This document shows positions 1,842 through 22,974 of a stretch of DNA of 23,769 bases, one piece after another (positions within the stretch are counted from its first letter, which is position 1; each line of letters begins with the position of its first letter). Under the pieces are notes generated by a model. The model was given only the letters and a program-made list of their open reading frames with translations, did not search any database and had not been told where the DNA came from. Source of the stretch: a virus; the IMG/VR virus record IMGVR_UViG_3300035698_025552, positions 1 to 23,769 of that record; one strand, given 5' to 3'. The translations under genes were made by a program, and so were the position numbers.

Positions 1842-1872
1842 TTGTTTGTCTGATTTTATTTTCTTATTTTTG
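1842..1872 (+). promoter_or_regulatory. Bacteroidota-type promoter of the primase operon
   Basis: TATTTTTG at 1865-1872 matches the -7 element TAnnTTTG. A TTG at 1842-1844 lies 20 nt upstream, which suits the -33 element. The last G of the box is only 5 nt from the primase ATG, so the transcript would be leaderless or nearly so. Confidence 0.6.
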
Positions 1873-1877
1873 CGTTT

Positions 1878-2864
1878 ATGCAAGATGAGAAATTTATCAT
1901 ATTATCTATTCTCAAAAATTTTCTAGGAGAGCCTAGAACATCTTATGGTGCTGAAACACGTAACCAATGGGAATTCAATTGCCCGAATAAATTATCAGAC
2001 TGCAGACATGATTACGACAAGTTTAATCTTGCTTTCCACTCTGAAAAGAATGTTTTTAAATGTTGGAAATGTCAAGAAAGTGGTAGCGTTCACAAACTTG
2101 TAAGAAAATACGGCACAGAGGCAGATTTCAAAAAACTTAAACTTATCCTTCCTTATTTTAATTCTGATTTTACAAATGTATTTAGAAAATCTAGAGGACA
2201 CCATCAGCTCATAACTTGTAAGTGGCCAAGTGGGTATATGCCCCTTAATAAAAAACAAAATACAGCCAAATACAAGCTTGCTTATGAATATGTAGTGGAC
2301 GAGAGAAAGATATCTCCCGAGTTAATAGACAAATTTAGAATTGGGTACACAGAATATGGCGAAAGAAAAAACAGGATAATTATTCCATCATTTAATGAAA
2401 TGAGGAAATTAAATTATTTTGAGGCCAGAACATATATCAAAGGGGCAAAGCCGACTTATTTGAAACCTGATGAACCTGAAAAGTTTGATATTATATTTAA
2501 TGAGTACAACATAAATTGGGATTTACCCGTATACTTAGTGGAAGGACCATTTGATATGATAAGAATACCTAATTGTATTCCTATGCTTGGTAAGATACCG
2601 TCGGATTTGTTGATTGCTAAACTTGTACAACATAGTTGTAAAGTGGTTGTATGTATTGATGAAGATGCTCTTCTTAAAGGTATTGAGATTTATGAACAAC
2701 TTGTTTCACTTGGATTGGAAGTAGAACTAGTCGACCTTACTGGACATGGAGATGTATCAAATGTTTTTGAAAATTATGGTCAGCCAGGTATTTTAGAATT
2801 ATTACAAACAAAAAAGCAAATAGACTTTGTTTATTATATAGCAAAATTATTACAAAAAAAATAA
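1878..2864 (+). CDS. DNA primase (CHC2 zinc finger plus TOPRIM)
   Basis: A 328-residue DnaG-type primase that makes RNA primers for lagging-strand synthesis. The zinc module lies at about residues 30-70 with C35, C42 (or H44), C62 and C65, in the order CPN...C/H...FKCWKC. The RNA polymerase core carries NRIIIP near residue 165 and a TYIKGAKPTYLKP stretch like the GR...PKYLNSP region of DnaG. The TOPRIM motif follows: YLVEGPFDMI with E222 and D226, then VVVCIDEDA with D261 and D263, the metal-binding acids. It is shorter than bacterial DnaG (about 580-600 residues) because there is no C-terminal helicase-binding domain, as is common in phage primases. The next gene starts 3 nt after the stop, so the two are likely co-transcribed. 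Confidence 0.88.
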   Translation: MQDEKFIILSILKNFLGEPRTSYGAETRNQWEFNCPNKLSDCRHDYDKFNLAFHSEKNVFKCWKCQESGSVHKLVRKYGTEADFKKLKLILPYFNSDFTNVFRKSRGHHQLITCKWPSGYMPLNKKQNTAKYKLAYEYVVDERKISPELIDKFRIGYTEYGERKNRIIIPSFNEMRKLNYFEARTYIKGAKPTYLKPDEPEKFDIIFNEYNINWDLPVYLVEGPFDMIRIPNCIPMLGKIPSDLLIAKLVQHSCKVVVCIDEDALLKGIEIYEQLVSLGLEVELVDLTGHGDVSNVFENYGQPGILELLQTKKQIDFVYYIAKLLQKK

Positions 2865-6727: not shown

Positions 6728-7429
6728 CCAGCGACCACGTTTTTTTCTTAACCATGGTTTTTTAACGTAAAAAGGATTCTTTTCTTTCTTTTCTTCGTCT
6801 AACTCATATCCTGTGATATCGCTTGTTACATCTGTTGGTTTTTCAACAGGGGTTTGTATTTGTTTTGTAATGTCAATCGGTTCAGCTTTTCCTGCTGGTG
6901 CTAGTTTCAGTTGTCTTTGTCTAGCCTCTGCAGGGTCATATACTGCAATTTTTGAAGAAAAATGTGAATCGTTTGGAGTATATTCATGTCCAGCATTGTC
7001 TTTTGGAGCTTCATTAAAAAATTTATCTGTGAGCCACATTCCTTTAAATTTGCTAGAACCTACATCAAACATTCTCCATTCTCCAGCAGCCTCTGCGCTT
7101 CTAGAGCCTGTTTTTTTTGCAACTTTTTCCGATTGCCCCTTGAGGTGATATGCACGAAGTTTTTTTGTTCCATTGTTATGAGTACCTAATACAACTGGAA
7201 GAACAAATCTAAATTTTGTTACAGGCATTCCCTCGCTTTGATAAGATATTCCAATAGCCTGTCCATTTGCTATGGCATCTTTCATCATTTGCTCGTCATA
7301 CCCAGTTCTCTGTGTGCTTTTCTCCCATCCTTTTGTTATTTCAGGGTTAGACATACGCAGCTTCTTACCTTCTTCTACAATCTTAGCAAGTTTGTTTAAC
7401 GTATCTTTATATGATTCTGACATGGACAT
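6701..7429 (-). CDS. WYL-like domain protein
   Basis: A 242-residue protein encoded against the surrounding genes. Residues ~50-140 follow the WYL pattern: a helix, GQAIGISYQ, a turn, then FRFVLPVVLG, LRAYHLKGQS, and finally EWRMFDVGSSKFKGMW. WYL domains are SH3-like folds that bind nucleotides or nucleic acid and often control phage-defence or DNA-repair genes. No helix-turn-helix precedes the domain here, so it is not a usual WYL regulator. The C-terminal third (from ~175) is Lys/Pro/Glu-rich and probably disordered, ending in a basic patch KKPWLRKKRGRWSRYF. A TATTTAT motif sits 6 nt ahead of the ATG in the gene's own direction. A second ATG two codons in (7423) is an alternative start. The WYL call comes from the pattern only. 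Confidence 0.5.
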   Translation of the reverse strand: MSMSESYKDTLNKLAKIVEEGKKLRMSNPEITKGWEKSTQRTGYDEQMMKDAIANGQAIGISYQSEGMPVTKFRFVLPVVLGTHNNGTKKLRAYHLKGQSEKVAKKTGSRSAEAAGEWRMFDVGSSKFKGMWLTDKFFNEAPKDNAGHEYTPNDSHFSSKIAVYDPAEARQRQLKLAPAGKAEPIDITKQIQTPVEKPTDVTSDITGYELDEEKKEKNPFYVKKPWLRKKRGRWSRYFQEED

Positions 7430-7474: not shown

Positions 7475-7482
7475 TATCTTTG
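7475..7482 (+). promoter_or_regulatory. TAnnTTTG promoter box, near-leaderless
   Basis: TATCTTTG followed by C matches the Bacteroidota -7 element. It ends 5 nt before the ATG at 7488. No TTG is seen at the -33 position. Confidence 0.55.
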
Positions 7483-9700: not shown

Positions 9701-9708
9701 TATATTTG
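9701..9708 (+). promoter_or_regulatory. TAnnTTTG promoter box of the helicase gene
   Basis: TATATTTG followed by C is a strong match to the Bacteroidota -7 element. It ends 4 nt before the helicase ATG. No TTG was found at the -33 position. Confidence 0.6.
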
Positions 9709-11672: not shown

Positions 11673-11679
11673 TATTTAT
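11673..11679 (+). promoter_or_regulatory. Late-type TATTTAT motif
   Basis: TATATTTATTAAAAAATATA lies 23 nt ahead of the ATG at 11703, after a T-rich tract (GTTTTTTCTA). Confidence 0.5.
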
Positions 11680-11702
11680 TAAAAAATATAAATTTCAAAG
11701 AT

Positions 11703-12320
11703 ATGAGTACTGAAAAATTTCAAATTTCCCAAAAAAGATTAGACGAGATAATCTTAGAAGAGGTAGTTAGGCTTAAAAAGATAAAAACTCTTAAGACTCA
11801 AAAAAACAATCTCTTAAAAGAGATGCATGAGCTTTACGGCGAAGAAAATGTTGACGAGATTTTTGGCATGAATCAGAAACGACAAGATAAAAGAACAGAA
11901 CTTCTTCAACAAAGAGTGGCTCAACTTACTAACCCTAAGACTTGGACAGCGAAATTTCCAGACCTTGTTGAATATATGAAGGGTGATGAAAATAAATTAA
12001 GAGCTTATTTTGAGAAAATAGCAAAAAATCCTAGTATGATGTCTAATTTTTATAGCGCTGCTAAGGAAAATATGGAAAAAGGTAAAAAATATCTTGATTT
12101 TTGGGTGGATAATTTTCACGAAAAAGGTGCTACTCCTTTATGGGATGCGGGAAATGGTGTTTACGTAAGTGCTGGAGTTGCAGGCAAAGGCGGCGGTGGA
12201 ATTACAGGTCCTGCAGGACAGACAGGGCAAAGCTCTAGAGGTGCAGAACTTTCACAACAAGTACAAGCCAAAAAACGCGCATCAGGAATGACTGGTCGAC
12301 AAAAATATGGACAGGAGTAA
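11703..12320 (+). CDS. Probable virion-associated protein with LxE propeptide-like start
   Basis: 205 residues, no known family. The N-terminus has an amphipathic helix, SQKRLDEIILEEVVRLKK, at about residues 9-26. It resembles the short leader helices seen on internal head proteins of T4-like phages, with LEE (or ILE) as a possible prohead protease site. A charged coiled-coil stretch follows (residues ~20-75), then a compact helical region with FPDLVEYM and KKYLDFWVDNF. The C-terminal ~55 residues are Gly/Gln/Ala-rich and flexible. A TATTTAT motif precedes the gene and a strong bidirectional terminator follows it, so it is probably a single-gene late transcript. The packaged-protein role is inference. 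Confidence 0.6.
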   Translation: MSTEKFQISQKRLDEIILEEVVRLKKIKTLKTQKNNLLKEMHELYGEENVDEIFGMNQKRQDKRTELLQQRVAQLTNPKTWTAKFPDLVEYMKGDENKLRAYFEKIAKNPSMMSNFYSAAKENMEKGKKYLDFWVDNFHEKGATPLWDAGNGVYVSAGVAGKGGGGITGPAGQTGQSSRGAELSQQVQAKKRASGMTGRQKYGQE

Positions 12321-12337
12321 TAATAAATTAATCATAT

Positions 12338-12379
12338 AAACAAAAAAACCGTGAACTAAAATTCACGGTTTTTTTGTTT
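12338..12379. terminator. Bidirectional intrinsic terminator
   Basis: Eighteen bases at 12338-12355 pair perfectly with 12362-12379 around a 6-nt loop. The GC-rich top is CCGTGAA/TTCACGG, flanked by A7 on one side and T7 on the other, so it can end transcripts from both directions. It lies between the convergent genes ending at 12320 and 12395. Confidence 0.92.
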
Positions 12380-12394
12380 ATAATATATTATTTT

Positions 12395-12676
12395 CTAATA
12401 GTCAGAGAATTTTCCCTGTCCCACTTTTAACATAGAAAGTACAGCGTGCTCCACAACATATACGTCTCTTGAGTCTTGATATTTTTTATATAAAAATAAA
12501 TTAATCACAAGGAAAGGTATTGCAATATACCAATTAAATATAAATAGCGCTTTTATTGCAAATATAGTAATTAATATTGCTAGTGTAACATACTGACGTT
12601 GCTTTTTTGATTCTACTTTAATAACATTTTCTGATTTTGCTATTTCGTCTCTAAAATTTTCTTCTTTCGTTTTCAT
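12395..12676 (-). CDS. Small membrane protein, two hydrophobic segments
   Basis: 93 residues. A charged N-terminal helix (1-28, EENFRDEIAKSENVIKVESK) is followed by hydrophobic segments at ~29-47 and ~50-63 split by an NW turn, then a soluble tail. This fits a two-helix hairpin in the inner membrane. Its size and proximity to the endolysin make a holin or lysis-control role possible, but it is transcribed in the opposite direction. No family recognised. Confidence 0.6.
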   Translation of the reverse strand: MKTKEENFRDEIAKSENVIKVESKKQRQYVTLAILITIFAIKALFIFNWYIAIPFLVINLFLYKKYQDSRDVYVVEHAVLSMLKVGQGKFSDY

Positions 12677-12744
12677 AATATTGTTTTTAAATTCCTACTT
12701 CTTCTATATCTTACGCACCTGTGAAATATTTGTTGCACTTTTAT

Positions 12745-12751
12745 ATAAATA
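12745..12751 (-). promoter_or_regulatory. Late-type TATTTAT motif, leftward
   Basis: On the minus strand the site reads AATATTTATATAAAAG, a full match to the consensus seen elsewhere. It lies 68 nt upstream of the leftward membrane protein gene. On the plus strand the same bases read TATAAATA. Confidence 0.4.
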
Positions 12752-12767
12752 TTTCTCTTTTTTTGAA

Positions 12768-12774
12768 TATTTAT
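12768..12774 (+). promoter_or_regulatory. Late-type TATTTAT motif of the endolysin gene
   Basis: GAATATTTATAATAAAAAAG follows a T-rich tract and ends 12 nt before the ATG at 12787. It also supports 12787 rather than the upstream GTG at 12721 as the start. Confidence 0.55.
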
Positions 12775-12786
12775 AATAAAAAAGTT

Positions 12787-13695
12787 ATGGTAGCACGTTA
12801 CGGAGAAAGAGGGGTATATATATCTCAAATTCAAAAATACCTATCTAACCTTGGCTATGACCTTGTAGTAGATGGGCATTTTGGCAAAGTTACTTTGCGC
12901 TCAGTTAAGGCGTTTCAAAAAAGAATAGGATTAAATGTTGACGGCGAAGTTGGAGAGAGAACGTATACCGCTCTCAAAGTTTCACAAAAAAGAAGTTTTA
13001 AAGAAAGTTCTGACAGGGTTCTAGAAAAAGATTACGGAGAACTTGAAGTAAACACCTCTTGTGAGTTGCCATCAGAACAATATAATAAGCTCATTACATC
13101 AAAAGAAATGGTGTTTCTCCATTTTACAGCTGGCAGCGGCTCGGCCTCTAACACTATAAACTACTGGGATTCTAATGAGTCTAAAATTGCAACAGCGTAT
13201 GTTATAGCTAGAGATAATGCTGAAATATATCAAGCGTTCCATCCTGACTATTGGGGTTGGCATCTTGGAGTTAAGAACACTAAAGGTAGATTAGATAAGG
13301 CGTCTGTGGGAATTGAAGTTTGTTCTTATGGTGGATTGAAATATAAGAATGATAGCTATTACGCGTGGCCTGATGATTTTTCACAAAAAACAATCCCAGC
13401 TGAGGATGTTTATGAAGTTGATGAAAATTTTAGAGGGTATAATTACTTTCAAAAGTTCACAAAAGAACAAATAGATTTAATTGAGAAATTGTTATTGCAA
13501 CTGGTTAAAGAATATAATATATCAGTACAAGATAGTTTTGATGAGAGCTGGTTTGAATATAAGCCAGAACTTGTTGCGGCAAATATCCCTGGTATATGGA
13601 ATCATGTGAATGTGAGAAAAGATAAAAGCGACCTCTATCCAGATAAGAGAATTGTTGCTATGTTAAATCGAGTTTCTAAAAAAGTGAATGGATAA
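12787..13695 (+). CDS. Endolysin: peptidoglycan-binding domain plus N-acetylmuramoyl-L-alanine amidase
   Basis: 302 residues. Residues ~5-65 are a PG_binding_1 domain (GERGVYISQIQKYLSNLGY, then VDGHFGKVTLRSVKAFQ and VDGEVGERTYTAL). Residues ~100-285 are an Amidase_2 domain, which cuts the bond between muramic acid and the stem peptide. Expected metal and catalytic positions are H112 (LHFTAGS), E177 (GIEVCSYGG), H273 (WNHVNVRKDKSD) and D282, the last standing where many relatives have Cys. There is no signal peptide, so release at lysis would need a holin. The motif-proximal ATG is chosen; the GTG at 12721 would add a hydrophobic N-terminus encoded by promoter-like DNA. The stop overlaps the next start by one base. 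Confidence 0.88.
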   Translation: MVARYGERGVYISQIQKYLSNLGYDLVVDGHFGKVTLRSVKAFQKRIGLNVDGEVGERTYTALKVSQKRSFKESSDRVLEKDYGELEVNTSCELPSEQYNKLITSKEMVFLHFTAGSGSASNTINYWDSNESKIATAYVIARDNAEIYQAFHPDYWGWHLGVKNTKGRLDKASVGIEVCSYGGLKYKNDSYYAWPDDFSQKTIPAEDVYEVDENFRGYNYFQKFTKEQIDLIEKLLLQLVKEYNISVQDSFDESWFEYKPELVAANIPGIWNHVNVRKDKSDLYPDKRIVAMLNRVSKKVNG

Positions 13696-13988
13696 TGACA
13701 AAGCAAGACGAGGTTAAAATAAGAAAAATGATTCAAGGGCAAATTGACAAGGCTCTTAAATCCGAACGAAAATTGCGAGCATCTGAAATTAAAACTGAAA
13801 TTTCAGTTACATGGAAAAAACATGAGAAGGAAATAAAAACTTTCATGAAAAAAGAACTGGATAAGTTAGATAAAGAAAAAATGTCCAAAGAAGATATTAA
13901 AACTATAATTGGAAAGGCATTTATAAGACAATATAGATTTATGTGGGAAAAAGGAAAATTTGTCACATCATACCTTAATGATATATAA
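13695..13988 (+). CDS. Small helical protein, coiled-coil
   Basis: 97 residues, Lys/Glu-rich and nearly all helical (residues ~5-70 have heptad character: VKIRKMIQGQIDKALKSE, then KEIKTFMKKELDKLDKE). The C-terminal part is more compact with aromatic residues (FIRQYRFMWEKGKF). The ATG overlaps the endolysin stop by one base, so it is translationally coupled. No known motif or membrane segment, which argues against holin and leaves spanin-like or virion roles open. Confidence 0.6.
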   Translation: MTKQDEVKIRKMIQGQIDKALKSERKLRASEIKTEISVTWKKHEKEIKTFMKKELDKLDKEKMSKEDIKTIIGKAFIRQYRFMWEKGKFVTSYLNDI

Positions 13989-13989
13989 T

Positions 13990-14601
13990 ATGACACCTGA
14001 AATGGAACAACAAATAAGAGAATTAGTTCGTAAGTCAATTGACGAAACAGCATTTGAAGAGCTGAAAAAAGCTCCTGCAAAAAAAGAAAAGTTTTTTGAT
14101 GAATTAAGACAGAACGCAAAAAAGAGCGCTCAAGCAGCTCACGATGCTTTATTCTTTGGCGGTAACAAAGATAATCTTGACGGTACGATGAAAAGAATAT
14201 CTTTAGGAGAATCAGCGAAACCAAGAATTAATAAGACTGATGTGGTTAATTTTGAAAAAGATTTTCAGAATTTTATTCCTAATGCAACTATAAGTTTAGA
14301 CACGCAGAAAAACGGATATGCATTAAGTTTTCCAAAGGTGCCAGGCGGAATGGAAGTGTATGCATCAGGGAAATTAACATTTGGACAAGGACAGGTTGCA
14401 GACTTCAAATTATCTTTGTTAAATGGAGTAATGGTTAATTTGCTCAATTTCAAACCCACACAGGACAATAAAACTGTGTTAGAAGACCTTTACAATTTCT
14501 ATCATACCTGGGGCGACCATTGGAGAGAAACATTAGGAACAGCACCAACAGAAGATGAGAGTAATGAAGAGGGTGGCGAAGAAGGAATGCCAGCTATCTA
14601 A
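13990..14601 (+). CDS. Unknown 203-residue protein, candidate virion-associated
   Basis: The ATG at 13990, one base after the previous stop, is preferred over an upstream in-frame ATG that lies inside the neighbour. The protein has a leader-like helix (MEQQIRELVRKSIDETAFEE) with a possible IDE cleavage site, a Lys/Ala-rich linker, then a folded region at ~85-185. The region has FEKDFQNFIPNATISLDTQK, FPKVPGGMEVYASGKLTF and a LEDLYNFYHTWGDHWRETL helix. I recall similar layouts in unannotated proteins of marine phages but cannot name a family. The tail is acidic (EDESNEEGGEEG). The downstream pair of TATTTAT motifs starts a new unit. Confidence 0.6.
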   Translation: MTPEMEQQIRELVRKSIDETAFEELKKAPAKKEKFFDELRQNAKKSAQAAHDALFFGGNKDNLDGTMKRISLGESAKPRINKTDVVNFEKDFQNFIPNATISLDTQKNGYALSFPKVPGGMEVYASGKLTFGQGQVADFKLSLLNGVMVNLLNFKPTQDNKTVLEDLYNFYHTWGDHWRETLGTAPTEDESNEEGGEEGMPAI

Positions 14602-14605
14602 TAAC

Positions 14606-14639
14606 TATTTATTTTAATAAGATTAATTGTTATATTTAT
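14606..14639 (+). promoter_or_regulatory. Tandem late-type TATTTAT motifs
   Basis: Exact TATTTAT occurs at 14606-14612 and again at 14633-14639, 27 nt apart. They lie 33 and 6 nt ahead of the ATG at 14646. This is the only gene in the window with two copies. Confidence 0.5.
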
Positions 14640-14645
14640 TTTTAT

Positions 14646-14936
14646 ATGAATTCTATTCAAACTATAATAGAAAATCAGGATAAATATAAGGAGGAGATAA
14701 TAAATTTTCTCAAGAATGATTATGAACAAACAAAAAAGAGACTTCAAAAAATTAAGCCAGCTGATAAATTCATTGAAAAAGAAAAAGTGAAATTGGTTAA
14801 AAAGTTTAAAAAATTGAAGTATGATAACTTTATCAGTCGTTTGTTTTTTATGCATTCTAAAAGACATCCTGTATTCTATGCTTGGTGGAATGAACAAAAC
14901 GAAGAAGTAAATATTCTACAGTATGACAAAAGATAG
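14646..14936 (+). CDS. Unknown 96-residue basic helical protein
   Basis: Charged helices at ~1-55 (IQTIIENQDKYKEEIINFL; KRLQKIKPADKFIEKEKVKL) and an aromatic C-terminal part (FISRLFFMHSKRHPVFYAWW). No membrane segment or catalytic motif. It is the first gene of a three-gene cluster in which each gene overlaps the next (14 nt, then 8 nt), so the three are probably translated in a coupled way. Confidence 0.55.
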   Translation: MNSIQTIIENQDKYKEEIINFLKNDYEQTKKRLQKIKPADKFIEKEKVKLVKKFKKLKYDNFISRLFFMHSKRHPVFYAWWNEQNEEVNILQYDKR

Positions 14937-15267
14937 AAAAAGCGAAGGAACCGACATTTATCTAATTGACCTTAGATATGCATTTTCAATGAATCACTTT
15001 TATGAATTTTTCGGAGAAAATGTGCCGTTCTCTTACATCGAACAAGAAAGTTACATCGACTTTAAGTCTATGGCCTTTGATTTGATTAATCCAAAAATAA
15101 AGTTTCGCAAATATGGAAGAGAAAAATTAACGCTAACATTAAAAGCTGAAATGACACCAGAAGAGCGCGAAAAACTCATAAAAATAAACAAAGAAAATAA
15201 ATTTCGGTTTTTTTATGATTATTTAATAGAAAACATAAGACTTTACAAAAACGAAGAAGATGAGTGA
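14923..15267 (+). CDS. Unknown 114-residue protein
   Basis: A soluble, mixed alpha/beta-looking protein. YLIDLRYAFSMNHFYEFFG near residues 13-31 and FRFFYDYLIENIRLYKNEE near the end are aromatic helices. The middle holds charged beta-like stretches (KFRKYGREKLTLTLKAEM). It overlaps both neighbours. No family recognised. Confidence 0.55.
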   Translation: MTKDRKSEGTDIYLIDLRYAFSMNHFYEFFGENVPFSYIEQESYIDFKSMAFDLINPKIKFRKYGREKLTLTLKAEMTPEEREKLIKINKENKFRFFYDYLIENIRLYKNEEDE

Positions 15268-16267
15268 ACAAGTTAATTTAACACCAGAACAAATTGCTGC
15301 AATGCGAGAGCAAAAAATGGAAAGTTTTAGAAAGATGGGACTGCCACCTGGTGCTGGACAAATGAGTCAAATTACCGAGATGCCGCCAACGCGTCAGCAA
15401 ATAGCACAACAAGAGGTTGCACAACAAAAGGCTGCACAAGCAAATCCAGAGGGCAATGTTGTTATGGAACAAGAAAGCGCTGAGGATATGACCCAATCAA
15501 TACGTCAACAAATTAACGAAGAGCGCACTCAAAAACAACAATACGGAGCACATTTTACCAGTGATAAGTATCAGAAACTGATGGCTATAAAAAATGGTAA
15601 CCTTAGACAAGAATATGATGTACATAAACGTGTATCAAGTAACCCAGGCACAGGGGGAGCTGCGACAGGATACCAATTACCTGTATCTAAAGCTGGACAA
15701 AAACGCGGAACTCAAGGAATGGGTCAACAACCAGTATCAGCGAACGCGATAGCTCCAACAGCGATACCTTCAAAAAATAGTCGTGAAGCGGCATTAATTG
15801 AAAACATGTTCGCTGGAACATCTTCACCTAGATTTTCAGTAGCATCAAATATTGAACAAGGTGGAAACCTTATTAACGAAGAGTCTTCATATGGAGGCGA
15901 CTTTAACAGTAAGTGGAACACTAAAAAAGCAAGCTTTCAAAATGGGCAACCAGGAACAACGCAGCAACCTCCCCATACTAGTAATGGAGAAATCCAGGAG
16001 ATGAAAGAAATGTTGAAGATGTTAATTGAAGCACAAGTGAGCGGTACACAACCACAAGTAATACAAGAAATAAGACAACCAAAACAGCCACAACACGACA
16101 TTAAAGCTTTAAAAAGTATGATGGTTGAAATAGCTAAAAAAGTGTCTACTATTATGATAAAAGAGGTTTTAGAAGAGTACACTAAAGTTCAAAAGAAAAA
16201 TGCTGTTAAAAATCTTGGAAACAATTATGTTGAAATTAATGGAAAAAGATATAAAGCTGTTTCTTAA
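15260..16267 (+). CDS. Gln/Ala-rich low-complexity protein, probable virion component
   Basis: 335 residues. Residues ~1-110 are Gln/Ala/Glu-rich and include MREQKMESFRKMGLPPGAGQ. The middle (110-240) is Gly/Ser/Asn-rich and probably disordered. Residues ~245-315 are helical (MKEMLKMLIEAQ; LKSMMVEIAKKVSTIMIKEV), followed by a beta hairpin NNYVEINGKRYKAV. That hairpin resembles C-terminal strands seen on phage structural proteins. Low complexity and a late cluster fit a virion or scaffold-like role, but I cannot assign one. It overlaps the previous gene by 8 nt and the convergent HNH gene by 4 nt, with no terminator between them. Confidence 0.55.
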   Translation: MSEQVNLTPEQIAAMREQKMESFRKMGLPPGAGQMSQITEMPPTRQQIAQQEVAQQKAAQANPEGNVVMEQESAEDMTQSIRQQINEERTQKQQYGAHFTSDKYQKLMAIKNGNLRQEYDVHKRVSSNPGTGGAATGYQLPVSKAGQKRGTQGMGQQPVSANAIAPTAIPSKNSREAALIENMFAGTSSPRFSVASNIEQGGNLINEESSYGGDFNSKWNTKKASFQNGQPGTTQQPPHTSNGEIQEMKEMLKMLIEAQVSGTQPQVIQEIRQPKQPQHDIKALKSMMVEIAKKVSTIMIKEVLEEYTKVQKKNAVKNLGNNYVEINGKRYKAVS

Positions 16268-16788
16268 GCGTTGTTGGGGTAAACCTCAGTATAATAAGTG
16301 CTTGTAAAAATAACTTTTACTTTATCATTTTTGTTATATATTCCCGCCTGGAGTTCTTTAATTAGGTCTTCGGGTGTTTTTTTTAGGTCAACAATTCTTC
16401 TTTGTTCATATTGCTTTATTAAGCGTCCTCCTCTCATATCTACTAATAAAGAACTTTGAGAAAGTGTAGAATTAACTAGTTTTACCCATTTTCTATTTGC
16501 AAGAGATTCGAAGTGTTGTGTAAGATGACACTCTTTACAAAGAAGGGCAGCTGGAGATGCTGCTGGATTCTCATAATTTATTTCTAATATATGTGCATAT
16601 AAACAATCAGAAAGGTTTTCTACAACTAAATGATGAGGATAACCACAACCAGAGCAGCATGAACGCGTTTTTATAAGTTCATTAAATATTGCTTTGTATA
16701 TATGCTCCCCATATGTTCTCTTAAATATAGCTTCGCTTATATGACTTATGGCTGGTATTACATCAAATTCTCTAACTATTTCACTCAT
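16264..16788 (-). CDS. HNH endonuclease-like protein
   Basis: 174 residues. C45-x2-C48 (CSGCGYP) and C84-x2-C87-H88 (LLCKECHLTQHF) form the zinc knuckles of a treble-clef HNH fold. H66 (LYAHILE) takes the place of the catalytic HH pair, and N74 in NPAASPAALLCKECH fits the central Asn. H92 is the last HNH histidine. The pattern L-x-A-H...N-P...L-C-x-x-C-H-x3-H is typical of HNH nucleases, though the single H at the first position may weaken activity. Leftward orientation in a rightward block suggests a separately acquired or separately controlled gene. A TAnnTTTG box lies 62 nt upstream. Alternative: a non-nuclease zinc protein with an HNH fold. Confidence 0.6.
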   Translation of the reverse strand: MSEIVREFDVIPAISHISEAIFKRTYGEHIYKAIFNELIKTRSCCSGCGYPHHLVVENLSDCLYAHILEINYENPAASPAALLCKECHLTQHFESLANRKWVKLVNSTLSQSSLLVDMRGGRLIKQYEQRRIVDLKKTPEDLIKELQAGIYNKNDKVKVIFTSTYYTEVYPNNA

Positions 16789-16850
16789 TTTTTTTTGGTT
16801 TGATAATACTGTGCATTTTTTATTGGCTTTTTTTAACTCCTAATTCCTCT

Positions 16851-16858
16851 CAAAGATA
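16851..16858 (-). promoter_or_regulatory. TAnnTTTG promoter box of the HNH-like gene
   Basis: On the minus strand the site reads TATCTTTG, matching the Bacteroidota -7 element, 62 nt ahead of the start. No TTG was found 19-21 nt upstream. The 201-nt gap 16789-16989 holds this box and the rightward TATTTAT motif, and nothing else was seen. Confidence 0.45.
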
Positions 16859-16964
16859 AGAATATTAGTCCTAACTTTAAAACCTTTCTGCAATTATCTT
16901 TTCTTTTATATACGTTTTTTTTTCTAAAAAGTTAACTTTTTTTGGAATTTTACGTTTTGTTTAA

Positions 16965-16971
16965 TATTTAT
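16965..16971 (+). promoter_or_regulatory. Late-type TATTTAT motif
   Basis: TTAATATTTATAAAAAAAAT lies 18 nt ahead of the ATG at 16990 and follows T-rich tracts. Confidence 0.55.
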
Positions 16972-16989
16972 AAAAAAAATCTGTATATT

Positions 16990-17736
16990 ATGAGTGATAA
17001 GAAAGTAATAAAATTTAACAACGTTAATGAATTAAAAAAATATATTCAAGAACGTGCAGAAACAATAGTTAACGCTGGTGAACCTGTAAAGGATGGTAAC
17101 AAATTAATGAATACTAAAGACGAGCTTAAGCAAAGCGATGGTTCATATGTTAAGTCTAAACCAGGTGGTGGCTTTGAAACTAAAAAAGAAGGTCCTACTG
17201 GAACTCCAGATGAATTTACAGACGAGGGCGACCCAATTGACCAAAAAATGAACCAGAAAGATAGTGACCAGGGACATGATGAAAGTGTTGCTACCGCAGC
17301 AAAAATCGAAGGTTCTAAGTCAACTAAGTCAGGTGAAAAAACAAATCCATACATAGCAGGTCAACATAAGCCAGACGTAACTACTAAAACGACTCAGCCA
17401 AATGTTACCACCGATAATGACCCAACTAAAGAAGGTGGCGTTCCTGGTGGAAAAGACAATGATGCAACAATGAACCAAGAAGACGGAGAAGACAAACAAA
17501 CTACTCCAAAAACACAGGTTATCGGCAAAGGTGAAATGGGCAAAGAAGGTTTTTCTAAGGGGCAAACTGACAAAGAAATTAATGCAAAAGCTAAGCAGGA
17601 AAATGACTCTGACAAAGAAAAGTTGGATGCTCAAATTAAAACAGTGCAGCTTCCAGAAAGTTTTAAAACTCAGTCTGACTTAGATAGCTTCATTAATGAA
17701 AATGCTACTCGCATAGCAAAAGAGCTTCTAAAGTAA
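16990..17736 (+). CDS. Disordered hydrophilic protein with matching end motifs
   Basis: 248 residues from the ATG nearest the TATTTAT motif (an upstream non-ATG start at 16942 would begin in promoter-like DNA). Residues ~35-220 are Lys/Asp/Gly/Thr/Gln-rich, with no Cys or Trp, and almost certainly disordered. Only the ends look helical, and they match each other: L-x-x-Y-I-Q-E-x-A-x-x-I at ~15-26 and L-x-x-F-I-N-E-x-A-x-x-I near the C-terminus. Both contain IxE, as at T4 prohead protease sites (FIAE in internal protein I). A head-packaged filler or scaffold-type protein is the best guess. A strong terminator follows, so this is a single-gene late unit. Confidence 0.65.
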   Translation: MSDKKVIKFNNVNELKKYIQERAETIVNAGEPVKDGNKLMNTKDELKQSDGSYVKSKPGGGFETKKEGPTGTPDEFTDEGDPIDQKMNQKDSDQGHDESVATAAKIEGSKSTKSGEKTNPYIAGQHKPDVTTKTTQPNVTTDNDPTKEGGVPGGKDNDATMNQEDGEDKQTTPKTQVIGKGEMGKEGFSKGQTDKEINAKAKQENDSDKEKLDAQIKTVQLPESFKTQSDLDSFINENATRIAKELLK

Positions 17737-17759
17737 ATCTTTAGACTCAAAATATACTC

Positions 17760-17793
17760 AAAGCGTATCTTTTTTATTAAAGGTACGCTTTTT
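17760..17793 (+). terminator. Intrinsic terminator
   Basis: AAAGCGTATCTTT (17760-17772) pairs with AAAGGTACGCTTT (17779-17791), with one wobble pair and a 6-nt loop, and runs into a T-tract. Confidence 0.88.
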
Positions 17794-17821
17794 CTATTTC
17801 TTTTTTTTGACTAGATTACTA

Positions 17822-17828
17822 TATTTAT
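17822..17828 (+). promoter_or_regulatory. Late-type TATTTAT motif
   Basis: CTATATTTATTGAAAAATAT ends 14 nt before the ATG at 17843 and follows a T8 tract. Confidence 0.5.
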
Positions 17829-17842
17829 TGAAAAATATATAT

Positions 17843-19858
17843 ATGCAAGTACTAAACCATAAAGAAATAAAAGAAAGATTCTCATTTTACTTCGAAGATG
17901 AAAATAAAAATCATTACATTTGTAATTGTGGACAATATTTCGAAAGGGATGTTGAGAAAGAGGATGGAGATAAAAAAGAAGACACTATAACCCATTCAGA
18001 TGATTACGCATATCTTTACAAGATGATAGAGATTGCACAACAAGACGAAATTAAGTGTCCTGGGTGTGGTAAAAACTTCTTATCTAAAGAACAACATCAA
18101 TTCTTAATGTTAACAGGTAGATTCTTTGTAGGGGGATATAATTACAAAGAAGATGATAAAAACATTAAATTGGAATATGCAGAGGCTAAGCCTGTAAAAA
18201 GTGAGGTAATAATTCCAGATAAAGATACTCACTACGAAATAGAGTTCCAAGAAAAAAGCAAATATATTCGATTTGAAAAAGAAAGTAGGAAATTATTTTT
18301 TAAAAATTATACCGAGGAAGAAATAGAGTTTGATTTGGATGAAGTAATCAAAACTGTTGATTTGTTTTTTACACAAGGCGTTGAAATTATCCATAACCTA
18401 TATTATCTTCATACATTTTTATGGGATTTATCTAAATGCGTTTCGGATGCTGGTAATATTGACATTGTCAATGGTCTCTTAGGGGAGATAAGAAATCAGT
18501 TTGGAGATGGGGGAACGGACAAAATCAAAAAGATAATTTCCATATTCTTCGGAATAATTAAATATTCTAATCTTTCTACCTTGGCACTTACAAAGGATGC
18601 AACATTTTTATTTGATATGATGAGAGATTGTGATATACCAAAACCTCAAGTTTTAATAGATAATAAAGTCACATCCCCTATAAAAATTTTTAACTTCCTG
18701 ATAAAAAATTACATTGGTAAAATCAATGATGAAATTAACGAGGATAATCAAGAAGCTCATGAGTTTGTTTTTAAGTCCTCTGTGAAGATGGAAAGAGAAC
18801 TTGTATTAGATGAAGAGGGAAACGTCCAATATCGCAAGGACGGCTCTGAAATAGATGTTCTACACGTAATGGATGATGGAGTTGAGCAGGAAATGCAGGT
18901 AAAATATAAGACTCACGATGGATATAAACCTAAAGTTAAAAAAAGTTCGGGTAAATTTGAAGTGGTTAGCGCAGCAGAGGACGGTTCTATATCAAAATTT
19001 ATTTTTAAGGCGGTAAGAAGATTTTCAGACTACAAACAAATAATGAGATACTTCAAATTTTTTGATAAACAACAAGTGATAAGTTTGTTGCAGAAATATG
19101 ATATTGACTTTTTAGTTGTTTTCATTGACATAATCTATTTTAGAGACATTGAGGATATGAAAGAATTTGAAAGAATTGCTCGTATTGTGTTGGACTATGC
19201 TAAACAAGAGACATTAGAAGTAAGACCTACATTAGATTTAGATAATGTTGTGTTAGATTATGGATATGTTCGTTCATTTGAATTTGTTATGTATGATGAT
19301 GCTATTATGATGATGGAGGTGCTGGAGTTTGACAGGAAACGTCATTTTCAAAAAATAAAAACTTTTGCTGAGCTGGAGGAATATCATGATAATATTGTAC
19401 ACTTCTTTAATATAGCAACTGATGAAGAAAAGAATGAAAAATTCCAGACATTTGTTAGTAGATTTAGATATCTTGAAGAGCGTGAAGATTACAAAGGTCC
19501 AATTGAGTTTAAATTAATTAACACCCCAGCAATGTTAATTAGAGAGGGTGTAACTATGAGTCATAGTGTTGGGTCATATTCAAGAAGAGTTATTGGTGAA
19601 ACTTATTTAATAGGTCAATTGTACGATAGAAGCAGAGATAGGGGAGAAAAAGATTTAGATAGGTTCACAATAGCATTTAATTTTAGCGAAATAGAAGGTC
19701 TTACATTTGACCAAATGAAAGGTTTTGGAAATCTTCCAGCTTGCGATAGGCTTAAGAAATTGGTAATGGAATATTTTGTAGCAAAAGACATCTCATATCA
19801 GCCGCTCAAAGATTTAAGAATAACTTCAATGAGAGAGGATGATAAATTAGTATTATAA
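17843..19858 (+). CDS. PcfJ-like protein with N-terminal zinc ribbon
   Basis: 671 residues from the ATG behind the TATTTAT motif (a TTG at 17807 is less likely). C27-x-C29 (CNCGQYF) and C72-x2-C75 (CPGCGKNF) look like a split zinc ribbon. The middle ~450 residues are helical and unassigned. Residues ~558-645 match the PcfJ pattern: LIREGVTMSHSVGSY, then a segment with IGQLYDRS, then RFTIAFNFSEI and a final MKGFGNLPA. It corresponds to the HCVxxY...I..LR...T.....I.Q..G..N layout of the family, with Ser before Val where many have Cys. PcfJ proteins are encoded by conjugative plasmids, ICEs and large phages. Their biochemical role is not established. Large size and late-type promoter fit a virion-delivered or late-acting protein, which is inference. 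Confidence 0.6.
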   Translation: MQVLNHKEIKERFSFYFEDENKNHYICNCGQYFERDVEKEDGDKKEDTITHSDDYAYLYKMIEIAQQDEIKCPGCGKNFLSKEQHQFLMLTGRFFVGGYNYKEDDKNIKLEYAEAKPVKSEVIIPDKDTHYEIEFQEKSKYIRFEKESRKLFFKNYTEEEIEFDLDEVIKTVDLFFTQGVEIIHNLYYLHTFLWDLSKCVSDAGNIDIVNGLLGEIRNQFGDGGTDKIKKIISIFFGIIKYSNLSTLALTKDATFLFDMMRDCDIPKPQVLIDNKVTSPIKIFNFLIKNYIGKINDEINEDNQEAHEFVFKSSVKMERELVLDEEGNVQYRKDGSEIDVLHVMDDGVEQEMQVKYKTHDGYKPKVKKSSGKFEVVSAAEDGSISKFIFKAVRRFSDYKQIMRYFKFFDKQQVISLLQKYDIDFLVVFIDIIYFRDIEDMKEFERIARIVLDYAKQETLEVRPTLDLDNVVLDYGYVRSFEFVMYDDAIMMMEVLEFDRKRHFQKIKTFAELEEYHDNIVHFFNIATDEEKNEKFQTFVSRFRYLEEREDYKGPIEFKLINTPAMLIREGVTMSHSVGSYSRRVIGETYLIGQLYDRSRDRGEKDLDRFTIAFNFSEIEGLTFDQMKGFGNLPACDRLKKLVMEYFVAKDISYQPLKDLRITSMREDDKLVL

Positions 19859-19868
19859 ATTTTTCTGC

Positions 19869-19875
19869 TATTTAT
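19869..19875 (+). promoter_or_regulatory. Late-type TATTTAT motif
   Basis: CTGCTATTTATTAAAAAACC lies 16 nt ahead of the ATG at 19892, immediately after the stop of the PcfJ-like gene. Confidence 0.5.
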
Positions 19876-19891
19876 TAAAAAACCATTTTTT

Positions 19892-20374
19892 ATGAAGAAT
19901 AGCGTTAAGAGACTTTTTTTAGAGGCGGAAACTGATAGAGATGCTAACTATAGACCTTTTTCCTCTGATATAATAGACAGAATAACCAATGTAGAGTTCA
20001 ACAGAAAGGATGATTTTATAAGAATCGATTTCAAGACTACATATAAGAAAGATATGTCTTTGGTTGCTAAATTTGCAGACTTCAAAAAATGGACTGATGG
20101 GTTTTTTGAAGAGAAGGGGAATGCAGATAATATGTTTAAAAAATTTGCTAAAGATTTTGCTAGTCAATCTCAAGAGGCAAAGGAAGAAGAAGTAAACGAA
20201 ATCATTGACAAAGATAATCAAATTATACCAGACGATACTATACCCTCAAATGCTACCAATTCACATATAGGTTTAAATCATACTATGGATTTGGAAAAAG
20301 TGTTTAGAAGGTCTATGCCAAAATCAGTAAGAAATTATTCTGGAAACTTAGGAATAGGAACGGTTGTATGGTAA
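19892..20374 (+). CDS. Putative packaged protein with T4-IP-like leader
   Basis: 160 residues. The start MKNSVKRLFLEAETD has the size and shape of the capsid-targeting sequence of T4 internal protein I (MKTYQEFIAE, cut after the Glu). Here FLE/A at residues 9-12 is the candidate cut. Residues ~20-80 look like a small alpha/beta domain (FIRIDFKTTYKKDMSLVAKF), then an acidic linker, then a basic tail with KVFRRSMPKSVRNYSG. No family recognised. First gene of a three-gene cluster with 7-8 nt overlaps. Confidence 0.55.
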   Translation: MKNSVKRLFLEAETDRDANYRPFSSDIIDRITNVEFNRKDDFIRIDFKTTYKKDMSLVAKFADFKKWTDGFFEEKGNADNMFKKFAKDFASQSQEAKEEEVNEIIDKDNQIIPDDTIPSNATNSHIGLNHTMDLEKVFRRSMPKSVRNYSGNLGIGTVVW

Positions 20375-20874
20375 AAAATAAAAAAATTATGGACGAGAAT
20401 AACGAAAAATCAAGAGCAAAAGAACTTATAAAGTCACTTGAAAAAACCAAGGGTACAACTCTAAAAGAAAACATTAACAAAAAAGTTAGTAAAGAGGTGT
20501 TAAGCGAAGAAGCTAAAAAAATGAAAAGGTTAACTAATGCTGAAAATACCAACAAAAATTTCAGAGAAGTTAATGAGACTTATATGATAAATGCTCCTTA
20601 TGGGAAACTTGCAGGCGGTCAAGGGAAAACTGTTAACACGTTTATTGACACTCAACAGGACTCAACGACAAATAAAACTCCTAAGCCAGAACCAGAAGGG
20701 TTAATGCCAGAGGAGGCTTTAGCAGTAGGAATTAAGAGAACTCTTAAGTCTGGAGTTCCTATAAACGACTTTGCTTTCTATGATGAAGTAAATTACAATT
20801 TAATGAAATTGGGATTTCCTGCAAAAAATGCAGTAGATATCAAGAATCATATTTTAAAAATGATTGATGAATAG
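20368..20874 (+). CDS. Unknown 168-residue charged protein
   Basis: The ATG at 20368 overlaps the previous stop by 7 nt; an in-frame ATG at 20389 is a possible alternative. The N-terminal 55 residues are charged helix with a VLSEEA segment resembling the LxE sites of its neighbours. The middle is disordered (Thr/Asn/Pro-rich). The C-terminal ~55 residues look folded (EEALAVGIKRTLKSGVPIND, then a tail with DEVNYNLMKLGFPAKNAVDI). It may be a phage virion accessory, but no motif proves this. Confidence 0.55.
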   Translation: MVKNKKIMDENNEKSRAKELIKSLEKTKGTTLKENINKKVSKEVLSEEAKKMKRLTNAENTNKNFREVNETYMINAPYGKLAGGQGKTVNTFIDTQQDSTTNKTPKPEPEGLMPEEALAVGIKRTLKSGVPINDFAFYDEVNYNLMKLGFPAKNAVDIKNHILKMIDE

Positions 20875-21430
20875 CGAACAGCTTGTTAGAATATATGTAA
20901 GAAATTTGTTATCTGAGGCATTTGAATTCAGTAATAAAAATGATTCTTTTGTACCTACTGATGAAATCAAGAGGATTGCTGAAAGAGCCAAAATTGCTTT
21001 GGAAAAAATCAAGGAGTCTGGCCAAAAATTTGAAAGTGCAGAAGGTAAAAAAAATGAGGGTAGCGGAAAAAGAAAAGTAGAAGATTTAATACAAGTTGTT
21101 CCACAATCGTTTCCTGAAATGAAAAGACTATATGCTTTTTTTGAGAGCAATAAAAATAATATAGCCGAAGAGAGAAAGAAATTAGGAATTCTTCCACAGC
21201 AAAAAGGGTCTGAGGAGGAAATGTTGAAATCTCCTACCATATTAGCTTGGAATTTACACGGAGGAGACCCTTGTCAAAACTGGGTAGGGGAAAAACTTGG
21301 TGCAAAACATAAATCAAATCTCAAAACAAAAGAAAGACTTCGCATCGGTGGAGGAGCTGGCAAAAACAAAGGAATGGGAAGTATGGATATTACCATGATG
21401 GACCCAACCAAGACAAGAATTCACAAATAA
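20867..21430 (+). CDS. Putative packaged protein with LSE/A leader
   Basis: 187 residues from the ATG at 20867, which overlaps the previous stop by 8 nt (a TTG one codon earlier is not needed). The leader MNSEQLVRIYVRNLLSEAFE is an amphipathic helix ending in LSE/A after residue 17, a near-ideal T4-type prohead protease site. Residues ~20-120 are charged helix. The C-terminal ~65 residues hold a distinct Gly/Trp/Asn-rich module (LAWNLHGGDPCQNWVGEKLG, then a basic stretch with RIGGGAGKNKGMGSMDIT) that I do not recognise. Confidence 0.55.
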   Translation: MNSEQLVRIYVRNLLSEAFEFSNKNDSFVPTDEIKRIAERAKIALEKIKESGQKFESAEGKKNEGSGKRKVEDLIQVVPQSFPEMKRLYAFFESNKNNIAEERKKLGILPQQKGSEEEMLKSPTILAWNLHGGDPCQNWVGEKLGAKHKSNLKTKERLRIGGGAGKNKGMGSMDITMMDPTKTRIHK

Positions 21431-21432
21431 TA

Positions 21433-21463
21433 TTGTTTTTTACAAAAAAATTTTATACTTTTG
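21433..21463 (+). promoter_or_regulatory. Bacteroidota-type promoter
   Basis: TACTTTTG at 21456-21463 matches TAnnTTTG and TTG at 21433-21435 lies 20 nt upstream, giving both elements at the expected spacing. It leaves a 33-nt leader before the ATG at 21497, unlike the near-leaderless boxes elsewhere in the window. Confidence 0.6.
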
Positions 21464-21496
21464 GAGTAAATTATAAACTTCAAATTTATATAGATT

Positions 21497-22108
21497 ATGA
21501 GTACACAGAGATACGTAGAACTTGCTAAAAAAGCAATAACTCCAACAATCCAACTGGATATTGGAGATAAAGACAAAAAAGAAACAACTTTCCTTGGTGC
21601 TGGAAAATACATGGAGGCTAACGAGGAACTTCTGGAAATAACTAATTACATTAAGGCAAATGCCGAACATAACTCGGATATTGAGCCTAGTAGAATTAGA
21701 TGCTTCTACACTACAAAGCCTAAGAAGGTAGGAGGTAAATTTGCAATAGGAGACTTAATTGTAAGAAGCGAATTTGATAAACTTGTAAATGATGAGATTG
21801 ATTACATATTAATTGTTTATTATCAAATGTGGAAAGAGCTTGAAATCGAAGATAAAGTGATTCAATTAGACAGGTTACTTTGCGGAGTGAAAGCTGGCGG
21901 TGAAAAGAAAGAGCAAGCAGATGCTAGAGAGTATACCGATAACTTATGGTTTTATCAACCAGATAAAGTATTGAGAAGTGTGGAAAAAGTAGCATTATCA
22001 ATAACAGGTATTATCGAAAGAGAAAAAGAAGCCCGTAAAAACCCGCCAGATGCTCAAGACCAAATCGAACAAATAGATGCAGATGCAGATGAAGTATACG
22101 AAAGTTAA
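21497..22108 (+). CDS. Phage metallopeptidase-like protein lacking HExxH
   Basis: 203 residues. The middle follows the layout of putative phage metallopeptidases: a beta region with K-x-x-G-K-F-A-I-G-D-L, then DYILIVYYQMWKEL (the YxIVI...W..L strand-helix), then a helix where HELxH should be. It also keeps the later QPDKVLRSVEKV...G segment that follows the active site in that family. At the zinc site it reads DRLLC (residues 125-129), so the His-Glu-x-x-His ligands are gone and peptidase activity is not expected. The C-terminus is Asp/Glu-rich. It may be a repurposed binding protein. The family link rests on remembered pattern, not a search. Confidence 0.45.
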   Translation: MSTQRYVELAKKAITPTIQLDIGDKDKKETTFLGAGKYMEANEELLEITNYIKANAEHNSDIEPSRIRCFYTTKPKKVGGKFAIGDLIVRSEFDKLVNDEIDYILIVYYQMWKELEIEDKVIQLDRLLCGVKAGGEKKEQADAREYTDNLWFYQPDKVLRSVEKVALSITGIIEREKEARKNPPDAQDQIEQIDADADEVYES

Positions 22109-22113
22109 TAAGT

Positions 22114-22362
22114 ATGGATAAAAACTTTTACAAATTTCTTTTTGCAAAATTTAAAGAAAAGAGAGAGCTTCTTTATCATTCTATCGACAAAATAATAGAA
22201 GATAAATCTATTGCTGAGGATGAAAGGGTGGAGAGAGCATACTTACTCTTTCATAAAATTGCCCAAGAAGAATTATCTTTAGAGGCTGCAAGTGAATATT
22301 ATCATCGGCAAATAAATCTAGAGATGTTAAAATCTAAGAATAAAGATAAAAAAGAAAAGTAA
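22114..22362 (+). CDS. Unknown 82-residue helical protein
   Basis: Starts 5 nt after the previous stop. Helical throughout with charged heptads (KFKEKRELLYHSIDKIIED; ERVERAYLLFHKIAQEELSL) and a Lys-rich tail. No known motif. Its stop shares a base with the next ATG. Probably one transcript from 21497 to 22903. Confidence 0.55.
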   Translation: MDKNFYKFLFAKFKEKRELLYHSIDKIIEDKSIAEDERVERAYLLFHKIAQEELSLEAASEYYHRQINLEMLKSKNKDKKEK

Positions 22363-22595
22363 TGATGGTTATATTATTAAAAATATTATTAGGAATCTTA
22401 GTTCTTGCTGAAATATTAGTAGGTAGAGTTATGGTGTCTGATTGGCTTAGTACTAAAAAGAGTCAAAATTTTGAAGAGGGAACGTTATATAGTAGGTTTG
22501 TAACAAATCTTACATTTGGGTTTATTATGGTTGCTCTTTTGATGATGGCTGTTTTTCTAGTATGGATTATTTCTTCACCTGTTACAATAGGATAA
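22362..22595 (+). CDS. Small two-helix membrane protein
   Basis: 77 residues with hydrophobic segments at ~2-20 and ~49-70 joined by a charged loop (SDWLSTKKSQNFEEGTLYSR), fitting an inner-membrane hairpin. Both ends overlap neighbouring genes by 1 nt. Size and topology are holin-like, but the endolysin is ~9 kb away and the promoter is of the early type, so membrane stress or superinfection control is as likely. Confidence 0.55.
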   Translation: MMVILLKILLGILVLAEILVGRVMVSDWLSTKKSQNFEEGTLYSRFVTNLTFGFIMVALLMMAVFLVWIISSPVTIG

Positions 22596-22903
22596 TGTTT
22601 AAAAAATGGTGGAAATATTCTCGTTGGAGATTTTATAAAAAAAATCTTTCTTGGAACATACGATTTTGGATGTATGCAAAAGCTGTATATAAACCAATCA
22701 TGTATCAAAGAGGAACAGGAGAATATGTTGACAACCAAAATGTTTACGATGAAAAATACATGGTCGAAATTAAAGAGCCAGTGACTAAAAAAAGGTTTTC
22801 TGGGTATTTTTATGATAATGGTCTTTACTTAGATAATCCTGGATTCCCCATTAGGGAACGGGACGTTTGGGTAGTATGGAAAAAAAAGGGTTTAATCCCT
22901 TAG
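22595..22903 (+). CDS. Small Trp/Tyr-rich basic protein
   Basis: 102 residues from the ATG at 22595, which overlaps the previous stop by one base; an upstream ATG at 22562 lies inside the membrane protein gene and is less likely. The N-terminus is strikingly aromatic and basic (FKKWWKYSRWRFYKKNLSWN), followed by beta-like segments (YMVEIKEPV; KRFSGYFYDNGLYLDNPGFP). The N-terminus could bind membranes or nucleic acid. No family recognised. A terminator follows 6 nt after the stop. Confidence 0.55.
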   Translation: MFKKWWKYSRWRFYKKNLSWNIRFWMYAKAVYKPIMYQRGTGEYVDNQNVYDEKYMVEIKEPVTKKRFSGYFYDNGLYLDNPGFPIRERDVWVVWKKKGLIP

Positions 22904-22909
22904 TTTAAG

Positions 22910-22935
22910 GCCGCGTCGAAAGACGTGGCTTTTTT
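22910..22935 (+). terminator. Intrinsic terminator with GAAA tetraloop
   Basis: GCCGCGTC (22910-22917) pairs with GACGTGGC (22922-22929), with one wobble pair and a GAAA loop, followed by T6. It ends the 21497-22903 unit. Confidence 0.9.
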
Positions 22936-22967
22936 GTTACAAAATAAATAAAAACCTTTTTTTTAGA

Positions 22968-22974
22968 TATTTAT
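22968..22974 (+). promoter_or_regulatory. Late-type TATTTAT motif
   Basis: AGATATTTATAGAAAAATC follows a T-rich tract and ends 19 nt before the ATG at 22994. Confidence 0.5.

Follow-up and report, generated by a model that had tools for sequence, protein, structure and literature searches.

The viral DNA studied here raises the question of whether a short AT-rich heptamer, TATTTAT, serves as a promoter and, if so, what reads it. The DNA (IMG/VR record IMGVR_UViG_3300035698_025552, hereafter the window) comprises all 23,769 bases of its record and is part of a larger phage genome. A sequence-only reading had noticed ten exact copies of the heptamer ahead of nine genes and had suggested a late promoter used by a phage sigma factor or polymerase. 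We put the probability at roughly three in four that these boxes are late promoters in the style of phage T4, consisting of a -10 element only and with a changed box, which would be read by a gp55-like sigma factor on the host RNA polymerase. As far as the literature searched shows, late gene control of large Bacteroidota phages is undescribed; in a search that covered few subscription journals, nothing relevant on TATTTAT phage promoters or on late promoters of Bacteroidota phages was found.

Placement and conservation of the TATTTAT boxes

All ten exact copies were found at the positions claimed, in coding direction ahead of the nine named genes (Table 1). Only a single noncoding copy lies in the wrong orientation (22944-22950, minus strand). 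Over the whole window TATTTAT is not unusually frequent, with 20 matches compared to 14.6 ± 3.8 in shuffled sequences, so that the signal is one of placement and strand rather than of overall abundance. Using automatic gene calls, 8 forward sites were counted in the 1073 nucleotides (nt) of upstream noncoding DNA. This confirmed the proposed excess over chance, since the simulated mean was 1.5 and none of 1000 first-order Markov simulations reached 8. For the form TATTTATnnAAAA, 6 copies were observed in this DNA compared to 0.06 simulated. The densities inside genes and in the two orientations differed as well, being 9.45 sites per kilobase (kb) upstream in forward and 2.36 in reverse orientation, and 0.18 (sense) and 0.31 (antisense) per kb within genes.

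To follow the box beyond the window we used nine relatives, consisting of IMG/VR contigs (named by G numbers in the following) and the isolated Flavobacterium phage immuto (NC_055915). They are not independent samples. Their genes were called automatically (longest open reading frame, first ATG), such that distances to start codons are approximate. The SbcCD protein of the window succeeded as bait, while its SNF2 helicase retrieved no relatives from IMG/VR and a 671-amino-acid protein none among isolated phages. The nearest relative is G001 (186.9 kb), in which a syntenic region (G001:59639-86812) covers the full window. Despite the divergence of the proteins (52% identity for SbcCD), the exact box was kept in G001 ahead of six of the eight orthologous genes. 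For the other two it carries one mismatch or is lost, and for the ninth gene G001 offers only a positional counterpart, which has no box (Table 1).

In the upstream DNA of all nine relatives TATTTAT was enriched in forward orientation. The forward, reverse and expected forward counts were 67, 14 and 10.7 in G011, 71, 30 and 13.5 in G009, 50, 25 and 7.1 in G018, 30, 9 and 4.0 in immuto, 23, 9 and 3.4 in G003, and 15, 3 and 0.9 in G016, where the enrichment thus persists at a GC content of 39%. For de novo discovery we ranked k-mers without prior choice, because T-tracts dominated the output of an expectation-maximization motif search, as did terminators and a second motif class in the case of G001. 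TATTTAT or CTATTTA came first in most relatives, namely in G003, G004, G006, G009, G011 and G016, as well as in the window. It was second in immuto and seventh in G018, and in G001 terminators and another motif ranked higher. T4 served as positive control in the identical test, in which its late box TATAAATA was found 6 times forward and 2 times reverse. Elsewhere this T4 box was not forward-enriched (forward/reverse 0/2 in the window, 6/22 in immuto and 6/52 in G011). No enrichment of TATTTAT appeared in four AT-rich Bacteroidota phages whose annotation includes an RNA polymerase of their own (1/5, 1/6, 1/2 and 0/1), and a 40-kb segment of the Microcystis phage Mel-JY01, too short to decide, gave no clear signal.

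Box architecture and gene classes

Across ten genomes, 294 of the 933 open genes, i.e. genes preceded by 25 nt or more of free DNA, had TATTTAT in forward orientation no further than 45 nt ahead of them (32%, compared to 94 in reverse orientation). Ahead of tightly packed genes it was rare (19 of 715, 3%), which makes a translation signal unlikely. The median gap between the end of the box and the start codon was 17 nt. Alignment of the sites revealed flanking information in an A or C directly before the box and in AA(A) 4 nt after it. The wider consensus of the sequence-only reading thus had to be revised to [A/C]TATTTAT-N4-AA(A) for the group, in which the preceding T-tract is only weak. The alignment contained neither a -35 element nor a conserved activator site upstream. 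When the sites of the Bacteroidota housekeeping type, TAnnTTTG, were aligned by the same procedure, a clear TTG element appeared 21-23 nt upstream. The TATTTAT sites have neither feature of this host promoter (TTG and TAnnTTTG, ~20 nt apart), and the two boxes were found together at only 3 genes where 24 were expected. The box is therefore distinct both from the host box, with which it is nearly mutually exclusive, and from the T4 late box, as TATAAAT was not forward-enriched. From this comparative evidence we infer that TATTTAT is used as a promoter, a putative function that we regard as well supported.

The two boxes were associated with different classes of genes. In G009, for which a sample of proteins picked mainly by size was scanned and many gave no match, the genes behind TATTTAT encode according to PHROG annotation a tape measure protein, portal, terminase large subunit, tail sheath, head maturation protease and baseplate hub. 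Behind TAnnTTTG we found two DNA polymerases, a primase, ribonucleotide reductase beta and one RpoD-like sigma factor. In immuto the TATTTAT genes include terminase, gp20, PhoH and a tail spike. In a comparison of five phages the box preceded the tail sheath gene in four and the protease gene in three; where it was missing, the gene followed shortly after another one. As for T4-type late promoters, the boxes thus lie before virion and lysis genes. That TATTTAT marks late genes appears well supported by these annotations, from which we infer the actual timing of the transcription.

In the window we identified RuvC, a DnaG-like primase, SbcCD, a PD-(D/E)XK nuclease, an SNF2 helicase and an amidase endolysin, while a scan of ten further proteins gave no match. 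The endolysin, whose role was borne out by its amidase and peptidoglycan-binding domains, is the only identified late-type gene among the motif-bearing genes of the window; contrary to what had been supposed, no head protein was recognised among them. The TAnnTTTG box is kept before the primase gene in G001, G006 and G009 and before gene 21497 in G001. Given the TTG/TAnnTTTG promoters and the isolated relative infecting Flavobacterium, the host of the window phage would be a Bacteroidota bacterium, and the TATTTAT-bearing group of large phages most probably infects Bacteroidota. By eye, terminator-like hairpins with T-runs were seen between transcription units of the window at 1241-1271, 12343-12376, 17745-17795 and 22903-22935.

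Table 1. Candidate late boxes, contrasting host-type boxes and two identified genes in the window (start to end position; late boxes are TATTTAT, host-type boxes were located by sequence)
Feature	Position	Strand	Context
Late box cTATTTATttAAAA	7436..7442	-	ahead of gene 7429-6701(-); exact box also in G001 orthologue, 5 nt before ATG
Late box aTATTTATtAAAAA	11673..11679	+	ahead of gene 11703; exact box kept before G001 orthologue 72925
Late box	12745..12751	-	ahead of gene 12676-12395(-), small membrane protein; G001 positional counterpart 73535-73951(-) without box
Late box	12768..12774	+	ahead of endolysin gene 12787; exact box kept before G001 orthologue 74103
Late box, first of two	14606..14612	+	ahead of gene 14646; exact form absent in G001
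Late box, second of two	14633..14639	+	ahead of gene 14646, ATG just 6 nt away
Late box	16965..16971	+	ahead of gene 16990; exact box kept before G001 orthologue 78550
Late box	17822..17828	+	ahead of gene 17843; one-mismatch form ATATTTAG in G001
Late box cTATTTATtAAAAA	19869..19875	+	ahead of gene 19892; TATTTATTAAAAA also before G001 orthologue, motif at 81452
Late box	22968..22974	+	ahead of gene 22994; box kept before G001 (exact) and G004 orthologues
Bacteroidota-type -7 box TATTTTTG	1865..1872	+	contrast class; ahead of DnaG-like primase gene 1878
Contrast-class box TATCTTTG	7475..7482	+	ahead of gene 7488
Contrast-class box TATATTTG	9701..9708	+	ahead of SNF2 helicase gene 9713
Contrast-class box TACTTTTG	21456..21463	+	ahead of gene 21497; TTG at 21433-21435
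DnaG-like primase gene	1878..2864	+	phrog_47 7.5e-32; host-type promoter class
Amidase endolysin gene with peptidoglycan-binding domain	12787..13695	+	late-type gene; Pfam Amidase_2 4e-12, PG_binding_1 3e-16

A candidate sigma factor and competing explanations

A search for sigma region 2 in the relatives returned a divergent protein of ~294 amino acids in G002, G003, G006 and G009. Homologues were also found in G001, in ~30 further IMG/VR loci, in Mel-JY01 and in immuto, where gp118 (YP_010114565.1, recorded as 'hypothetical protein') is 34% identical to the G003 protein. The family members are 225-363 amino acids long. A gp55-like candidate is thus present in relatives including G001 and immuto, such that of the two readers initially suggested the sigma factor gained support. 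Pfam Sigma70_r2 matched 6 of the 12 members tested (E 4.4e-5 to 0.024) with consistent placement. When a profile of the family was compared with one built from seven gp55 proteins, the two aligned colinearly in region 2 (86 columns, E 2.9e-4; 1.4e-3 after retrimming), and all 30 shuffled profiles scored lower. The profile phrog_234 matched immuto only, and weakly (E 0.008). For a fold model of the protein, most top matches were sigma factors, with an unnamed protein as best viral match (1.7e-4) followed by a sigma-E factor (8.6e-3). Beyond region 2, about 100 extra residues form a conserved helical C-terminal domain.

Motif and protein family occur together: all motif-bearing genomes that are complete enough encode the family. 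At 28 loci with the sigma gene, some of them possibly closely related, TATTTAT was counted 78 times forward and 35 times reverse, with 19 loci favouring the forward orientation, 2 against and 7 ties. In the 69-kb fragment G004 the gene was not found. A sigma-bearing clade with a different motif, which would prove co-variation, was not found either. Based on the co-occurrence, the family would be the reader of TATTTAT.

In such a system, TATTTAT would act as the -10 box of a late promoter class with the consensus given above and without a -35 element, from which transcription probably starts ~6-8 nt downstream, so that the transcripts would have a short leader. Host-type promoters, with TTG ~20 nt before TAnnTTTG, would be retained by early and replication genes. 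Late in infection, the phage region-2 protein would bind the core of the host RNA polymerase and direct it to the TATTTAT boxes. By comparison with T4, it may replace or compete with the host sigma factor and recognise the box during promoter opening.

Several observations weigh against this reading. The Sigma70_r2 matches lie below the curated cut-off of Pfam, and the match to the gp55 profile is weak (hhalign probability 40%). T4 gp55 alone matched nothing with phmmer in the relatives, single sequences were uninformative in hhalign, and a match emerged only between two profiles. Confidence in the fold model is moderate (predicted local distance difference test score, pLDDT, 75; predicted template modelling score, pTM, 0.39), and the model had no PDB match below E 0.1. 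Among the genomes examined, the T4-type clamp (PF02916) was found in T4 only and the beta clamp (PF00712) in none, although divergent clamps could escape these searches; without a clamp found, the T4 activation mechanism stays an analogy for this group. The window fragment itself contains no sigma gene; we assume that its phage carries one, because G001, which is syntenic throughout, does. In G016 and immuto, the box is missing ahead of some virion genes, and these closely follow their upstream gene. Finally, boxes that end 4-6 nt from the called ATG leave too little room for a leader. Such boxes were seen in the window ahead of genes 7429(-) and 14646 and at several G009 genes, and the short gap at 7429(-) is retained in G001. 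With a gap of this size, either the transcripts would be leaderless or the start codon would lie further downstream.

The best surviving alternative, which we nevertheless consider rather unlikely, is that the boxes are read by a primary or alternative host sigma factor together with a phage activator, or by RpoD-like sigma factors of the phages. Phages commonly modify the host sigma factor, and G009 and G006 each encode two adjacent RpoD-like sigma factors. Against a host-type reader, the late sites lack the TTG element of host-type sites and exclude TAnnTTTG, and their alignment showed no conserved upstream site for an activator. In the complete immuto genome no Sigma70_r2 match was obtained at E up to 1; this phage therefore contains no recognisable RpoD-like sigma factor, yet it carries the motif. 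The RpoD-like pairs (regions 1.2-4; G009:57223-59047(-) and G006:63369-65184(-)) possibly serve early or middle genes; both of these large phages possess the gp55-like candidate as well.

A phage-encoded RNA polymerase, the second reader initially suggested, is improbable. Jumbo phages such as AR9 (PMC5312081) and the four control phages above possess their own polymerase, but no homologue of the multisubunit beta' subunit was detected in 13 records, while the same search recovered it in all 14 control genomes, and a sigma-like gene is present instead. A search for T7-type polymerases was empty in the records and in its control alike and is thus uninformative.

Still a little less probable is that TATTTAT acts in translation initiation or mRNA stability. 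The boxes are close to start codons, and initiation in Flavobacterium is described as using sequence features other than Shine-Dalgarno (PMC6847099). A translation element, however, would be difficult to reconcile with the near-absence of the box before tightly packed genes, its exclusion from the other promoter class and the lack of enrichment in the other AT-rich Bacteroidota phages. An artefact of composition or a by-product of terminator T-tracts can practically be dismissed, since the very AT-rich noncoding DNA, the T-tracts at terminator ends and the ordinary window-wide count are outweighed by the dinucleotide-matched simulations, the orientation tests, the enrichment in G016 and the conservation before orthologues.

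Relation to known systems and further promoter-like motifs

The T4-style late promoter with a gp55-like reader, which we favour, can be compared directly with its model. In T4 an 8-bp box precedes the start by about one turn, there is no -35 element, and gp55 is sigma-like only in domain 2 (PMC2988020). The TATTTAT sites share the single AT-rich -10 box, the missing -35 element, the AT-rich DNA just downstream and the position before virion genes, and the candidate protein would likewise be a divergent phage sigma factor, with a putative resemblance to sigma-70 in region 2 only. The box itself differs, being TATTTAT instead of TATAAAT(A), i.e. with TT instead of AA at positions 4-5. Read on the opposite strand, the T4 box gives exactly TATTTATA, yet the latter stands in the same functional orientation. 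We also considered whether the sites are simply T4 late boxes pointing the other way; this was rejected, as the forward orientation dominates in every relative. The late promoters of KVP40, 44RR, S-PM2 and Aeh1 follow the same logic with a highly similar consensus. Aeh1, altered at -13/-12, provides a precedent for a box change, while a change to TT in the middle of the box is not described there (PMC2988020). The Bacteroidota housekeeping promoter, found in the same genomes before early and replication genes, is in contrast two-part and has a different -7 box.

The candidate reader departs from the plan of gp55, which is small and consists of region 2 and a short clamp-binding motif at its C-terminus. 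The candidate family is longer and carries the extra helical C-terminal domain, and neither a gp45-type nor a beta clamp was detected in the TATTTAT phages. Tentatively, and with somewhat less than even odds, a large and widespread phage group, mostly infecting Bacteroidota, may possess a late system of its own, in which a new sigma family with region 2 and a novel C-terminal domain reads TATTTAT without a phage sliding clamp.

With this motif, late operons become easy to mark in dozens of large uncultured phages, most of whose genes lack a name, and a protein family so far without annotation is linked to a specific function that can be tested. Immuto is an isolated relative with both the sigma family and the boxes, and its record annotates neither the motif nor the function of the protein. 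Together with its host Flavobacterium sp. LMO8 it forms an isolated pair in which the proposal is directly testable. A comparison of the readers of TATTTAT and TATAAATA would reveal how a minimal sigma factor shifts its -10 specificity.

The SbcCD, primase and sigma proteins of Mel-JY01 (PP395634), recorded as a Microcystis phage, resemble those of this otherwise Bacteroidota-linked group, such that its recorded host may deserve a check. Further promoter-like motifs were noticed in three relatives. In G018 (274 kb) the host-type promoters are strongly fixed as TACCTTTG (34 forward, 1 reverse), sharper than the general TAnnTTTG. In immuto, TATATTTAGGTATCAATAATTAAAAC occurs at 60-75 kb before many small open reading frames; it is unlike the late box and probably an early or middle promoter. 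G001 contains at ~140-175 kb, a probable early region, about 48 copies of TTTCTTTATA, often in the form TTTCTTTATATGTTTATAACCAATAAAA, which directly follow CCCCCTTTT terminators, precede small open reading frames and represent a second promoter-like class that differs from the late box.

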